NCBI RefSeq assembly: GCF_011799805.1
Contig: NZ_WXUB01000006.1
Location: 1-64,000 of the forward strand
Origin: Maribellus sediminis
GTDB taxonomy: Bacteria; Bacteroidota; Bacteroidia; Bacteroidales; Prolixibacteraceae
Direction: 5' to 3'
DNA length: 64,000 nucleotides
Positions 59,672-62,826 of this stretch are shown here, in pieces. The first letter of the stretch is position 1; the number at the start of each line of letters is the position of its first letter. A program made the position numbers and the translations under genes. The notes beneath the pieces are model-generated. The model saw nothing but the letters and a program-made list of their open reading frames with translations, had not been told where the DNA came from and did no database searches.

Positions 59672-59824
59672 CTACTCTTCTTCCAAGTCAAAAATTTCTC
59701 TGGGACGGGTTGTTGGTCTTGTATCTGCTCCACCTTTGATGGTGTTCATTTCTGCAGTTGTTAAAACGTCAAAACCTAGACTTTTAAAAGTATTTTCTGT
59801 TGATTGTCCCTGTACCCTTTTCAT
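59672..59824 (-). CDS. GG-leader peptide, putative secreted or processed peptide precursor
   Basis: This 50-residue peptide has a double-glycine leader. Residues 1-32 end in LTTAEMNTIKGG, which matches the L-x-x-x-E-M-x-x-I-x-GG cleavage motif of Bacteroidetes natural-product precursors and bacteriocins. The 18-residue remainder starts ADTRPTTRPRE and ends in DLEEE, without Cys. I use the ATG at 59824 because it gives a compact leader; an upstream in-frame ATG at 59890 would run through the repeat at 59829-59868. A peptidase-containing ABC transporter (C39) is not in the window. It is divergent from the TPR-CHAT gene, 134 nt apart. Its role is unknown; processing by the CHAT protein is a hypothesis. 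Confidence 0.65.
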   Translation of the reverse strand: MKRVQGQSTENTFKSLGFDVLTTAEMNTIKGGADTRPTTRPREIFDLEEE

Positions 59825-59828
59825 CGTA

Positions 59829-59868
59829 ATATAGATTGATTTGTTAAACTTTATAAATACACATTCAC
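59829..59868 (-). repeat. Leader-region repeat unit (fourth copy, inverted)
   Basis: On the reverse strand this reads GTGAATGTGTATTTATAAA, a short gap, then AATCAATCTATAT, ending 4 nt before the peptide ATG. The third copy downstream of the CHAT gene (62899-62933) has the same two blocks on the plus strand, so the pair is inverted across the protease gene. Confidence 0.85.
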
Positions 59869-59907
59869 TTATATATTCTGAAAAGGGCAAAAAGGTAACC
59901 CCCTGTT

Positions 59908-59938
59908 TTTGAAAAAAATTAAAAAACTTCTATTTTGG
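59908..59938 (+). promoter_or_regulatory. Promoter of the TPR-CHAT gene
   Basis: TTTG (59908-59911), a 19-nt gap, then TATTTTGG (59931-59938, one mismatch to TAnnTTTG) precede the ATG at 59959 by 20 nt. The leader would be about 14 nt. Confidence 0.45.
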
Positions 59939-59958
59939 CGTAAAATTCACTCATTACG

Positions 59959-62826
59959 ATGTCTAAATCAGGGATTTTTATTTCGCTTTTTCTTTTTCTT
60001 TTTTTTCCTCACAATCTTTTTTCTCAAGAGAAGGATTCAACATGGTATGCAGATAAGTCGGAGCAGCTGTATCTACAGGGAATTCAATTATTTAGAAACG
60101 GTGATGAAAATGAGGCATTAGACACCTTTCTGCTCTGTTTAAAATATAAAATACAGATTTACGGACAAGAAGATTATGAGCTTGGAAAAGTGTATAATGC
60201 TTTGGGTATAGTTAACAGAAATTTAAATAGAAACGACAAAGCAATTCAATATTACAAACTCACCGAGAGTAACTACAAGTTGAATCCGGAGTTAAGACCA
60301 TCCGTTCTCGCTGGATTATATACGAATATTGGAGCTGTATACCGTTCAAAACTGGATTACGTAAATGCTCTCAATTACTACGAACGAGGTTTAAATATCT
60401 TACTAAAACAGGAAACTCCCAATCCAGATAGAATAGACATTGCATATTATTCCATCGCAGAATTAAATTTCCTTATTGAAAACTATGAAAAGGCAATGTC
60501 TATAGCTGAACAATTTAAAAATACCAGTGATACTATTTCTAAAATATACTGGTATACTCTTCTTGCCAATATAGAACAAGAACTTGACAACTTGGATAAA
60601 GCGAGGATTTATCATCAGCACACTATAGACCTGGCTCGACAATATTATGGGGAGAATGATATTGAAACAGCAATCGCATATTTGAATTTCGCTGTTTTTG
60701 AATCTTCTACTAACAATTATACAGAAGGAACGAGAGCACTTGAGAAAGCTTATAATATCATACGTATAATTCAACCACACAAAGGCCTCAAACTGTCTAA
60801 TTATTATGAATTCAAAGGTAATTTACTAAAATCAAAACCTGTTGAGAGCTCTGATATATACTCTTTTAAATCTCAAAAGATAAAAAACCTCGAAGAGGCA
60901 ATAAGTTGGTATAAAAAAAGTTTAAATGCACTTTTTGTAGGAGAGGGTGAGGCTAAGATTGAAGAATTAACAATCGATAATTGCTTGTCGTTTACCGACT
61001 GTATGATTCTGCTAAAAACCATTGCCGACACCCACAATGAGATGGCTTTGCTTGACAAGGAGGAAAAAAGTGCGTTTTATACCGAATCACTGGATGAAGC
61101 TTTACGCTACTATAAAGTGATCGGAAATTTGATTTCAAGAGCTCGAATGGAAATCTCGGGCGATGAAAGTAAGATCCAACTCGCTCAACTGGAATATGAA
61201 ACCTTCACCAAAACCATTGAAACCGCCTATCTGGCCTACGAAGCAAATAATAATGATGACTACCTGGAGTTGGCATTTAACAATTCGGAACAACTAAAAA
61301 GCAGTGCCGTATTTGATAAAATATCCAACGATATTGCCCAGGAAAACAGCTTGATTCCCGATAGCCTGCTCGAACTGGAAAGCAATCTGAATAATACAAT
61401 CTCCATATACAATGAGAGGCTTTTTACAGAAAACAGTGAGGATGAGCCGGATACCGCATTACTTGCTGATTATAATACCAAAATTTTTGAGGCCAGCCGT
61501 CAGCGGGACGAGCTTAACCGTTTTCTGGAACAGCAATATCCTGACTATTATGACCTGAAGTATTCCAAATCAATGTTGTCCATCGAGGATGCTCAAAATA
61601 TGATGGATAAAAAGGATGCCATCCTGGAATATGTACTTACCGAAAACGATTCAATTAGTGAACTTTTTACTTTTCTGATCACTGCAGACAGCAAAAAGTT
61701 TCTGCGACAAGCTATCGACAAGGAAACTGCAGTATCTATGGAGTACATGTATAATTTCATGACGACTCCTGATTATTTATTTACACAAAACGATGATATC
61801 AAGCAATTTTGTGTATCAGCCCATAACATGTACAAGCTCCTGGTGCAGCCCATTTCCGAAGATTTAATCAATAAAAACCTGACCATTATTCCTGATGGGA
61901 AACTAAACTATATCGCTTTCGATGGATTAATTAAAACTATGCCTGATACAAGTGCTTTCATCGACTTTTCGCGGCTGGATTACCTGGTTCGCCACTTTAA
62001 TGTGAACTATGCCAATTCGATGAATATTTTAATGAAACATCGTGCCAAGAAACGGAATCTGAAGAACCAGATTCTGGCTTTTGCTCCTGTATACAATAAC
62101 GAAAAGGTTGTGCTTTCGAATGCAAACTACACACTTTTACCATTACCTGGAGTTCAAAGCGAAGTCGATGCCATTTCCAATACGGTTAAAACCGATATTT
62201 TCCGTGGAACTGATGCAACAGAAGAAGAATTCAGAGCTTTGTGTCAGAACTACGAAATTCTACATTTGGCTATGCACGCGTATATAAACGATTCGCTACC
62301 AGCATTTTCGAGGCTGGCGTTTTCTCCCGTACAGAATGAAAATGATCTGCAAAAAGACGGATGGTTAAACACGGCGGATATCTACAACCTCAATCTTCGA
62401 AATGCCCGTCTTACCGTTCTCAGTGCCTGTAATACGGGGGTTGGTAAAATGCAAAAAGGTGAAGGTTTAATGAGTTTGGCACGTGGATTTCTTTATGCAG
62501 GCTGTCCTTCAATTATCATGTCGTTATGGGAAGTTGAAGACAACGCCGGCACACAAATTATGACCTCGTTCTACAAGTACCTGAAAAACGGAAAAACAAA
62601 GGACGAAGCACTCCGTCTGGCTAAAATCGATTACCTCGATAAATCCAATTCACGTTTGGCACATCCGCATTACTGGATGAGTTTTAAGGCTATCGGCGAT
62701 CCTTCGCCTATCTATACCAGCAACGACATTTACTTCTTTGGCCTTTTAATTATTTTGATTGTTGCGTTTGCCATCGACCAGGGATTGAGAATGAAAAAAG
62801 CCCGTCGTAAACAACGGGCTTCGTGA
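59959..62826 (+). CDS. Exported, membrane-anchored TPR-CHAT protease
   Basis: This 955-residue protein has a signal peptide (1-22, ending FSQ). Many TPR-like helical repeats follow (about 30-330, such as NALGIVNRNLNRNDKAIQYY), then a helical connector. The CHAT caspase-like peptidase domain (about 600-915) has catalytic His773 in LAMHAY and Cys824 in LSACNTG. A single transmembrane helix (about 924-941) and a basic tail KKARRKQ end it. By the signal peptide and C-terminal anchor, the protease faces the periplasm. The first kilobase is markedly AT-richer than the rest, changing near 61000. Neighbours are a divergent GG-leader peptide and a convergent anti-sigma-like TPR protein. The substrate is unknown. 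Confidence 0.88.
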   Translation: MSKSGIFISLFLFLFFPHNLFSQEKDSTWYADKSEQLYLQGIQLFRNGDENEALDTFLLCLKYKIQIYGQEDYELGKVYNALGIVNRNLNRNDKAIQYYKLTESNYKLNPELRPSVLAGLYTNIGAVYRSKLDYVNALNYYERGLNILLKQETPNPDRIDIAYYSIAELNFLIENYEKAMSIAEQFKNTSDTISKIYWYTLLANIEQELDNLDKARIYHQHTIDLARQYYGENDIETAIAYLNFAVFESSTNNYTEGTRALEKAYNIIRIIQPHKGLKLSNYYEFKGNLLKSKPVESSDIYSFKSQKIKNLEEAISWYKKSLNALFVGEGEAKIEELTIDNCLSFTDCMILLKTIADTHNEMALLDKEEKSAFYTESLDEALRYYKVIGNLISRARMEISGDESKIQLAQLEYETFTKTIETAYLAYEANNNDDYLELAFNNSEQLKSSAVFDKISNDIAQENSLIPDSLLELESNLNNTISIYNERLFTENSEDEPDTALLADYNTKIFEASRQRDELNRFLEQQYPDYYDLKYSKSMLSIEDAQNMMDKKDAILEYVLTENDSISELFTFLITADSKKFLRQAIDKETAVSMEYMYNFMTTPDYLFTQNDDIKQFCVSAHNMYKLLVQPISEDLINKNLTIIPDGKLNYIAFDGLIKTMPDTSAFIDFSRLDYLVRHFNVNYANSMNILMKHRAKKRNLKNQILAFAPVYNNEKVVLSNANYTLLPLPGVQSEVDAISNTVKTDIFRGTDATEEEFRALCQNYEILHLAMHAYINDSLPAFSRLAFSPVQNENDLQKDGWLNTADIYNLNLRNARLTVLSACNTGVGKMQKGEGLMSLARGFLYAGCPSIIMSLWEVEDNAGTQIMTSFYKYLKNGKTKDEALRLAKIDYLDKSNSRLAHPHYWMSFKAIGDPSPIYTSNDIYFFGLLIILIVAFAIDQGLRMKKARRKQRAS
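62798..62821 (-). terminator. Terminator inside the end of the CHAT gene, acting on the opposite strand
   Basis: AAGCCCGT (62798-62805) and ACGGGCTT (62814-62821) form an 8-bp stem with an 8-nt loop. Read on the reverse strand it is followed by six T. It would stop transcripts of the anti-sigma-like gene (stop at 62943) 120 nt later, within the last codons of the CHAT gene. Confidence 0.65.

Follow-up and report, generated by a model that had tools for sequence, protein, structure and literature searches.

A double-glycine leader peptide gene linked to a TPR-CHAT protease and an ECF sigma factor module in Maribellus sediminis and other Bacteroidales

A 64,000-nucleotide stretch of the Maribellus sediminis genome (RefSeq assembly GCF_011799805.1, contig NZ_WXUB01000006.1, positions 1 to 64,000; hereafter the window) carries close to its end a short gene for a peptide precursor with a double-glycine (GG) leader, located head-to-head with a gene for a protein combining tetratricopeptide repeats (TPR) with a CHAT protease domain (Table 1). 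Downstream of the CHAT gene, and convergent with it, lie the genes of a transmembrane anti-sigma-like TPR protein and of an extracytoplasmic function (ECF) sigma factor, and this arrangement was found in all 20 genus neighbourhoods read. The module of peptide, tethered CHAT protease, anti-sigma-like protein and ECF sigma factor is real and conserved. The original prediction, made from the letters of the window, had paired the peptide with the protease, and this part of its interpretation stood; the linked sigma module had been overlooked.

Table 1. Features of the locus; positions refer to the window unless the contig (C10) is named.
Feature	Position	Strand	Remarks
GG-leader peptide precursor	59672..59824	-	50 aa; 32-residue leader; predicted mature part of 18 aa; ATG at 59824, stop codon ends at 59672
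Promoter-like site GGGTTACCTTTTT-N10-GAATATAT	59871..59901	-	upstream of the peptide gene; candidate site for the linked ECF sigma factor
TPR-CHAT protease, 955 aa	59959..62826	+	Pfam, alignment of 45 sequences, AlphaFold model, Foldseek
Anti-sigma-like protein, 504 aa	62943..64000 in the window; gene extends to 64457 of the contig	-	
ECF sigma gene	C10 64441-65028, just outside the window	-	own promoter-like site at C10 65041-65068

The precursor consists of the leader MKRVQGQSTENTFKSLGFDVLTTAEMNTIKGG, which terminates in ...LTTAEMNTIKGG, and the predicted mature part ADTRPTTRPREIFDLEEE, with no cysteine in the whole sequence. The 50-residue, cysteine-free double-glycine precursor with its 18-residue remainder was thus found where it had been predicted. 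A 72-aa frame beginning with TTG in the open reading frame list is the peptide frame read from an earlier start, while the conserved start is the ATG. Profile searching of the genome with the peptide family returned this gene as the single match (E = 7.7e-22). The short precursor and a leader end of the L..(E)M..(I/V)(K/R)GG type are features of the GG-peptide class, and the curated leader model TIGR01847 gave the M. sediminis peptide 14.9 bits, below the cut-off of 15.7, which was passed by two of the five relatives' peptides scanned. With TIGR04149, the model of GG peptides modified by radical SAM enzymes, this peptide was not listed up to an E-value of 1, and two relatives' peptides reached 15.7 and 12 bits, under the cut-off of 25; by eye, with no model search made, no radical SAM enzyme was recognised near the peptide loci. 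Among pairs of the four closest loci, the ratio of nonsynonymous to synonymous per-site differences (pN/pS) in the peptide frame was 0.14-0.49. A chance open frame was considered and ruled out by conservation, by the pN/pS values and by the background counts given below.

The CHAT domain (PF12770) occupies residues 621-914 of the divergent protein (E = 5.3e-60, 203.7 bits at a cut-off of 24) and is preceded by a TPR array. The protein has a hydrophobic N-terminus, consistent with an export signal, and near its C-terminus a hydrophobic helix, placed by the AlphaFold model at residues 923-954, followed by a K/R tail; these terminal features recur in 33 of the 34 relatives measured. The proposed divergent pairing of the peptide with an exported, membrane-tethered CHAT protease was therefore upheld. 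An alignment of 45 CHAT sequences shows no variation at three residues, H769, H773 and C824, and we take these to be the active-site histidine and cysteine positions of a protein for which proteolysis is predicted. In a Foldseek search with the AlphaFold model (mean predicted local distance difference test score, pLDDT, 84.7; predicted TM-score 0.79), the best solved matches by E-value were TPR-CHAT chains of Craspase and separase, with a top E-value of 1.4e-13. The best 60 rows of a sequence search against the PDB contained TPR proteins only. The closest named relatives are from Maribellus sp. CM-23 (60% identity over the full length) and a Draconibacterium metagenome-assembled genome (74% over the C-terminal part). 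A role in anti-phage defence was also considered and was not supported, since a PADLOC scan of three proteins yielded one weak generic TPR match.

Conservation within the genus was assessed in 37 genomes, including that of M. sediminis. The CHAT orthologue was detected in 31 of them and the peptide likewise in 31; both are present in 30 genomes, and neither in five (G012, G015, G019, G023 and G025), which are drafts 70 to 96% complete. One genome, G028, has only the CHAT gene, cut at a contig start, and another, G022, only the peptide, at a contig end. The two genes adjoin each other in 28 of these 30 genomes and lie at the ends of different contigs in the other two (G001 and G033), and every peptide match of the profile search in the genus either adjoins CHAT or sits at a contig end. 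No match to the anti-sigma-like protein was found in the five genomes lacking the module, nor in G022. Looking for a GG-leader frame beside TPR-CHAT genes in related genomes had been proposed as a check of the original prediction, with a frame not conserved in relatives as the result that would speak against it; the frame proved to be conserved at this site, the 30 genomes with both genes being found among the 37. In 25 aligned peptides the predicted mature part has the consensus P-K-S-R-D-K-D-x-F-D-x-E-E-E, with variants of the form PKSRDKD-I/V-F/Y-D-x-EEE, from which that of the window departs (PTTRPREIFD). The single match beyond the genus, a weak GG-leader one (G051, C3 231039-231113, E = 0.0018), lies about 3.5 kb from a C39 peptidase gene (C3 227147) in an order-level genome with no full TPR-CHAT match and perhaps represents another kind of GG peptide.

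The sigma protein exceeds the cut-offs of two ECF models, TIGR02937 (52.5 bits, cut-off 42.9) and PF04542 (25.6 bits, cut-off 24). The neighbouring anti-sigma-like protein was modelled (pLDDT 70) with three helical modules in tandem in its N-terminal part (residues 6-72, 187-249 and 256-324), a membrane helix at 336-359 and TPR at 386-500. Its gene adjoins that of the ECF sigma factor and its single membrane helix separates two soluble parts, and it is because of this position and architecture that we assign a putative anti-sigma role to it; its TPR part is probably the periplasmic one. The top Foldseek matches of this model were TPR proteins. On the other side of the sigma gene, outside the window, a gene for a 246-aa protein (L147 5390-6130, contig C10 65389-66129) adjoins it in 20 of 20 genus loci; the product has one N-terminal membrane helix and a Pro/Glu-rich stretch, giving it a TonB-like look, with no Pfam match.

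The peptide and sigma genes share a promoter-like sequence. A block with GGGTTACCTTTTT-N10-GAATATAT upstream of the peptide is kept in all 20 genus loci aligned, out of 26 with a peptide frame, and a second GGGTTACC site, with GAATA (GAATT in two loci) at equal spacing, is present in 20 of 20 longer genus loci, directly ahead of the sigma ATG in the three loci that were checked against the frames (L146, L147 and L148). In the 5.6-Mb M. sediminis genome, the exact GGGTTACC-N15-GAATA pattern occurs only twice: one copy precedes the peptide gene and the other the sigma gene, ending 12 nt ahead of its ATG. A search of 41 genomes (25 of the genus and 16 of the order) revealed 46 sites in 21 genomes versus 3 for the reversed control, and by position 18 of these belong to the peptide, 18 to the sigma gene and 10 lie elsewhere. 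The exact pattern was not found in any of the 16 order-level genomes, whose sites have another sequence. A relaxed pattern, which was composed after viewing the genus alignment and four order-level loci that are themselves among those scored, reached a score of at least 10 upstream of the peptide in 38 of 45 wider loci and at least 11 in 31; the corresponding control frequencies were 6/59 and 0/59 for antisense and 113/1820 and 16/1820 for random sequences.

Several further sites were observed. A longer pattern with up to 3 mismatches identified two weaker sites more in the M. sediminis genome; one of them, with 3 mismatches (L136 6680, contig C12 116649-116679), lies upstream of a gene for a 599-aa protein with a signal-like N-terminus, a gene that may be one more target of the sigma factor. 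In the relative G009, a site of the GGGTTACC type lies close to the 3' end of an argS-like gene (L142 6741-6890) and resembles sites in L137, L138, L140 and L144. The roughly 95 nt after it, closed by a terminator-like hairpin with a T run, are a candidate small RNA of the sigma regulon; the genome-wide pattern search detected no exact site near the argS-like gene of M. sediminis. Two other relatives have sites ahead of genes of a family of about 125 aa (SYLPTAFPAHYYGMPNGKIYLVFSRFY...; L143 7086-7460 and L145 6498-6878), which are possible regulon members.

Wider loci were selected by CHAT similarity alone, with L150, L151, L152, L153 and L154 duplicating G007, G004, G021, G033 and G005, respectively. 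L196, from the same genome as L083, was left out of the promoter, tree, mature-part and 45-locus counts, and L092 out of the tree; the GG-frame survey counts both L083 and L196 and takes L085, with its broken CHAT frame, as short. In this survey a GG frame was present within 1 kb upstream of 43 of 47 short-type CHAT genes (<1030 aa), divergent in 42, and of 3 of 28 long-type genes; the background was 7 frames in 907 kb of flanks, two of these being further tandem copies in L161, and both figures were scored with the same pattern, written after many peptides had been viewed. Among 45 peptide loci (one duplicate dropped), 42 contain the anti-sigma-like gene and 39 the sigma gene, and four of the six loci without a sigma gene end within 1 kb of the CHAT gene. 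The sigma gene is convergent with CHAT in 35 of the 45, and 22 have the anti-sigma gene downstream of the peptide and in the same orientation. The 49 distinct mature parts have a median length of 16 residues (range 10-35) and a median net charge of -3, with 40 net negative, 44 free of cysteine and 16 without Lys or Arg; they vary by clade, as exemplified by DLIIPP, DDDLWPP and YQDKCINEDILV. When the peptide label is mapped on a tree of 118 CHAT rows, 15 changes are required, compared with 37.4 in shuffles, and 20 of the 25 rows without peptide fall in one group.

At the level of the phylum, TPR-CHAT proteins were detected at E <= 1e-60 in 89 of 296 sampled genomes. The 29 best TPR-CHAT loci outside the order, the M. 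sediminis genome not being counted, each have more than 3.3 kb of upstream sequence, and none of them has a GG peptide; sigma and anti-sigma-like matches were found in 9 and 12 of these loci, respectively. Some loci without peptide have a different neighbour. A secreted protein of about 410 aa of the type IX secretion system (T9SS) kind, encoded at L082 11894-13129, has Por_Secre_tail and CarboxypepD_reg domains (scanned for L082 only), and its homologues occur in 18 of the 43 loci that have no peptide; 16 of these genes lie immediately upstream and have the same direction. Such Bacteroidales loci have the same protease family and mostly sigma and anti-sigma genes but differ in carrying the L082 homologue in place of the GG peptide, and a protein of this type is possibly an alternative partner of the CHAT protease–sigma couple.

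Three tandem peptide copies are frequent, and 12 analysed genomes carry three copies with three leader types. Within these genomes, the ten-residue cores of the copies showed a pN of 0.011 at a pS of 0.405 (36 pairs in 12 genomes, with about 195 synonymous sites summed over the pairs; the genomes taken have three recognisable leader types, and L005, L006 and L018 were left out). For the same copy between genomes, the core pN was 0.060 to 0.072, and the leader ends within a genome had a pN of 0.27. The low core pN despite high pS indicates that each genome keeps the protein sequence of its product constant. Because the synonymous sites differ, recent gene conversion was ruled out as the only reason for the constant mature parts, and old conversion events possibly lie behind the constant cores. 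In two Marinifilum genomes the copies number 4 and 5, all of those in a genome having the same mature sequence. Some copies are aberrant: the third one in L018 (4892-5020) has no ATG in frame, overruns the usual end and appears degenerate, and in some deep-branching genus members the second copy (L058 1289-1504, L059 1259-1474 and L097 8742-8939) has a C-terminal extension, ...NWVEWLKNWLG, with the look of an amphipathic helix.

The M. sediminis genome encodes one C39 peptidase ATP-binding cassette (ABC) transporter, with an HlyD gene adjoining. A C39 exporter is linked in 7 of the 45 peptide loci, with HlyD adjoining in five and the other two loci ending there. In eight loci that were read closely, most of them picked for a C39 match, the C39 gene is on the peptide strand in six, and kinase-like and partly LytTR-like genes lie between; HisKA and LytTR domains were confirmed by Pfam in L171 only.

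We infer the use of the promoter-like sites by the linked sigma factor, export by the C39 transporter, binding of the peptide to the protease, the sign of its effect, and cleavage of the anti-sigma protein, and the pathway could proceed as follows. The ECF sigma factor would transcribe the peptide gene and its own operon from the GGGTTACC-N15-GAATA promoters. The precursor would be cut after GG and exported by the C39 transporter with its HlyD adaptor. In the periplasm, the mature, mostly acidic peptide would meet the TPR array of the tethered protease and gate the CHAT active site, and the protease would then cut the transmembrane anti-sigma protein on its TPR side, in the periplasm, and so free the sigma factor. 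Feedback would be positive, or negative if the peptide is inhibitory. That the locus is one copy of a module conserved in Bacteroidales, placing an ECF sigma factor under the control of a secreted peptide via a periplasmic caspase-like protease, is a proposition about which we are evenly divided. The narrower version, in which the periplasmic TPR-CHAT protein is a peptide receptor signalling through anti-sigma cleavage to an autoregulated ECF sigma factor, with mature peptides diversified like pheromone types, is put forward tentatively, as somewhat less probable. The role of the peptide leans to that of an activator or signal, and the tandem copies, all giving the same product, speak for a diffusible signal.

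A number of observations weigh against control of the sigma factor by the peptide. The fold matches of the CHAT model are modest, the TM-score normalised by query length being 0.33 for the top hit and 0.33 to 0.40 for the five top Craspase chains, and the anti-sigma-like protein matches TPR only and none of the Pfam anti-sigma families (to an E-value of 0.01). In G022, a 99% complete genome, the peptide lies at a contig end and no CHAT or anti-sigma match was found anywhere, which reflects either an assembly gap or a loss. Seven of the 45 peptide loci have no site at a score of at least 10, and sites of their own at a score of at least 11 were found for only 15 of 69 sigma genes, more rarely than upstream of the peptides. 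By the strict pattern, 25 of 28 long-type loci lack the peptide (a looser GG frame exists in two of these, L213 and L216), yet the sigma gene is present in 20 of the 28. The C39 exporter of M. sediminis is unlinked to the peptide locus and has no promoter-like site, and four of the five genomes without the module still have a C39 protein, so the exporter is not dedicated to the module. Finally, HlyD-type export should release the peptide outside the cell, whereas the TPR-CHAT protein faces the periplasm; the model thus has to assume either that the peptide comes back through the outer membrane or that it is released into the periplasm.

Other roles of the peptide account for some of these data. 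It could be a substrate of the CHAT protease, trimmed or destroyed after export, with the sigma module merely controlling expression. Such a role fits the strict adjacency of the two genes and the arginine of the mature part (R40) that is invariant in the 25 aligned peptides, clan CD proteases often cleaving after Arg or Lys. However, the wide variation of the mature parts between clades, together with those that have neither residue, means that no common Lys/Arg cleavage motif is visible, and the TPR-CHAT/sigma couple also occurs without any peptide, which makes a substrate role unlikely in our view.

We would give equally little credence to the peptide inhibiting the CHAT protease or serving as its lid, as a sigma-controlled brake acting in negative feedback instead of signalling. 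The sigma-type site at the peptide gene, the anti-sigma gene (itself a brake) that comes after it in 22 of 45 loci, and the net negative charge of most peptides would suit a brake, but tandem copies with constant mature parts are easier to reconcile with dosage of a diffusible signal than with an inhibitor working one-to-one, and it is not obvious that an inhibitor acting in the cell's own periplasm would need a GG leader over an ordinary signal peptide.

Even less probable is an antibacterial effector, or bacteriocin, for which the CHAT-sigma genes would provide regulation or immunity. Bacteriocins typically have GG leaders and C39 exporters, and the leader cut-off passed by two of the five scanned relatives' peptides is that of a bacteriocin model. 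Bacteroidetocins are GG-leader toxins of Bacteroidales, in which GG cleavage has been demonstrated and a C39-type ABC transporter gene is likewise present; they have 42-48 residues and four cysteines, the two studied ones are basic, and the four-gene region reported for them includes no CHAT or sigma gene (PMC6671954). The mature parts found here are, unlike these, short, mostly acidic and largely free of cysteine, that of M. sediminis with 18 residues and no cysteine falling outside the bacteroidetocin range, and the position of the gene is syntenic in 20 of 20 genus neighbourhoods. Mere inherited synteny of a functionally independent peptide and protease, suggested by the syntenic state of the entire neighbourhood within the genus, is highly improbable, as the linkage is kept in further families where the neighbours and the mature parts differ, the genes are absent together, and the peptide and sigma genes have a promoter-like site in common.

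For signalling by the peptide through the protease to the sigma factor, partial parallels exist in known systems. In Craspase, the TPR-CHAT protease Csx29 cleaves the sigma inhibitor Csx30, and there, too, a TPR-CHAT protease adjoins an ECF-type sigma factor (CASP-sigma) and its inhibitor (PMC10028731). Craspase differs in being RNA-activated via Cas7-11, whereas the protease described here looks exported and membrane-tethered and is accompanied by a GG peptide; no Cas genes were recognised by eye among the neighbouring frames, with no Cas7-11 model search made. DegS, a PDZ serine protease activated by porin-derived peptides, offers another parallel. In the DegS-RseA-sigmaE pathway, a peptide-activated envelope protease cuts a transmembrane anti-sigma factor (PMC10028731). 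Here, the protease is instead of the CHAT/TPR type and the peptide is dedicated and gene-encoded. Streptococcal pheromones of the ComC/BlpC type likewise have a short precursor, a GG leader and a C39 exporter (PCAT), and their receptor is a histidine kinase. What is conserved in our loci is, by contrast, the pairing with a TPR-CHAT protease of the periplasm and its ECF sigma module, and a HisKA protein is linked in some peptide loci only.

GG-peptide signalling is best known from Gram-positive bacteria, and for the majority of the exported TPR-CHAT proteins in Bacteroidota we know of no function. Systems combining caspase domains with ECF sigma factors and TPR proteins have been described in a work that does not use the term double-glycine (PMC8195603). 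A literature search, the scope of which excluded preprints, most subscription journals and the ECF classification, yielded no publication in which a GG peptide is linked to a CHAT protease and a sigma factor in Bacteroidota. The module has a fair chance of being a new signalling pathway. If the proposed mechanism is true, GG peptides, caspase-like CHAT proteases and anti-sigma proteolysis would be united in one compact module, which would provide a natural ligand and substrate for testing a CHAT protease outside CRISPR and would make clear predictions for short synthetic peptides, one protease, one anti-sigma substrate and one promoter motif.

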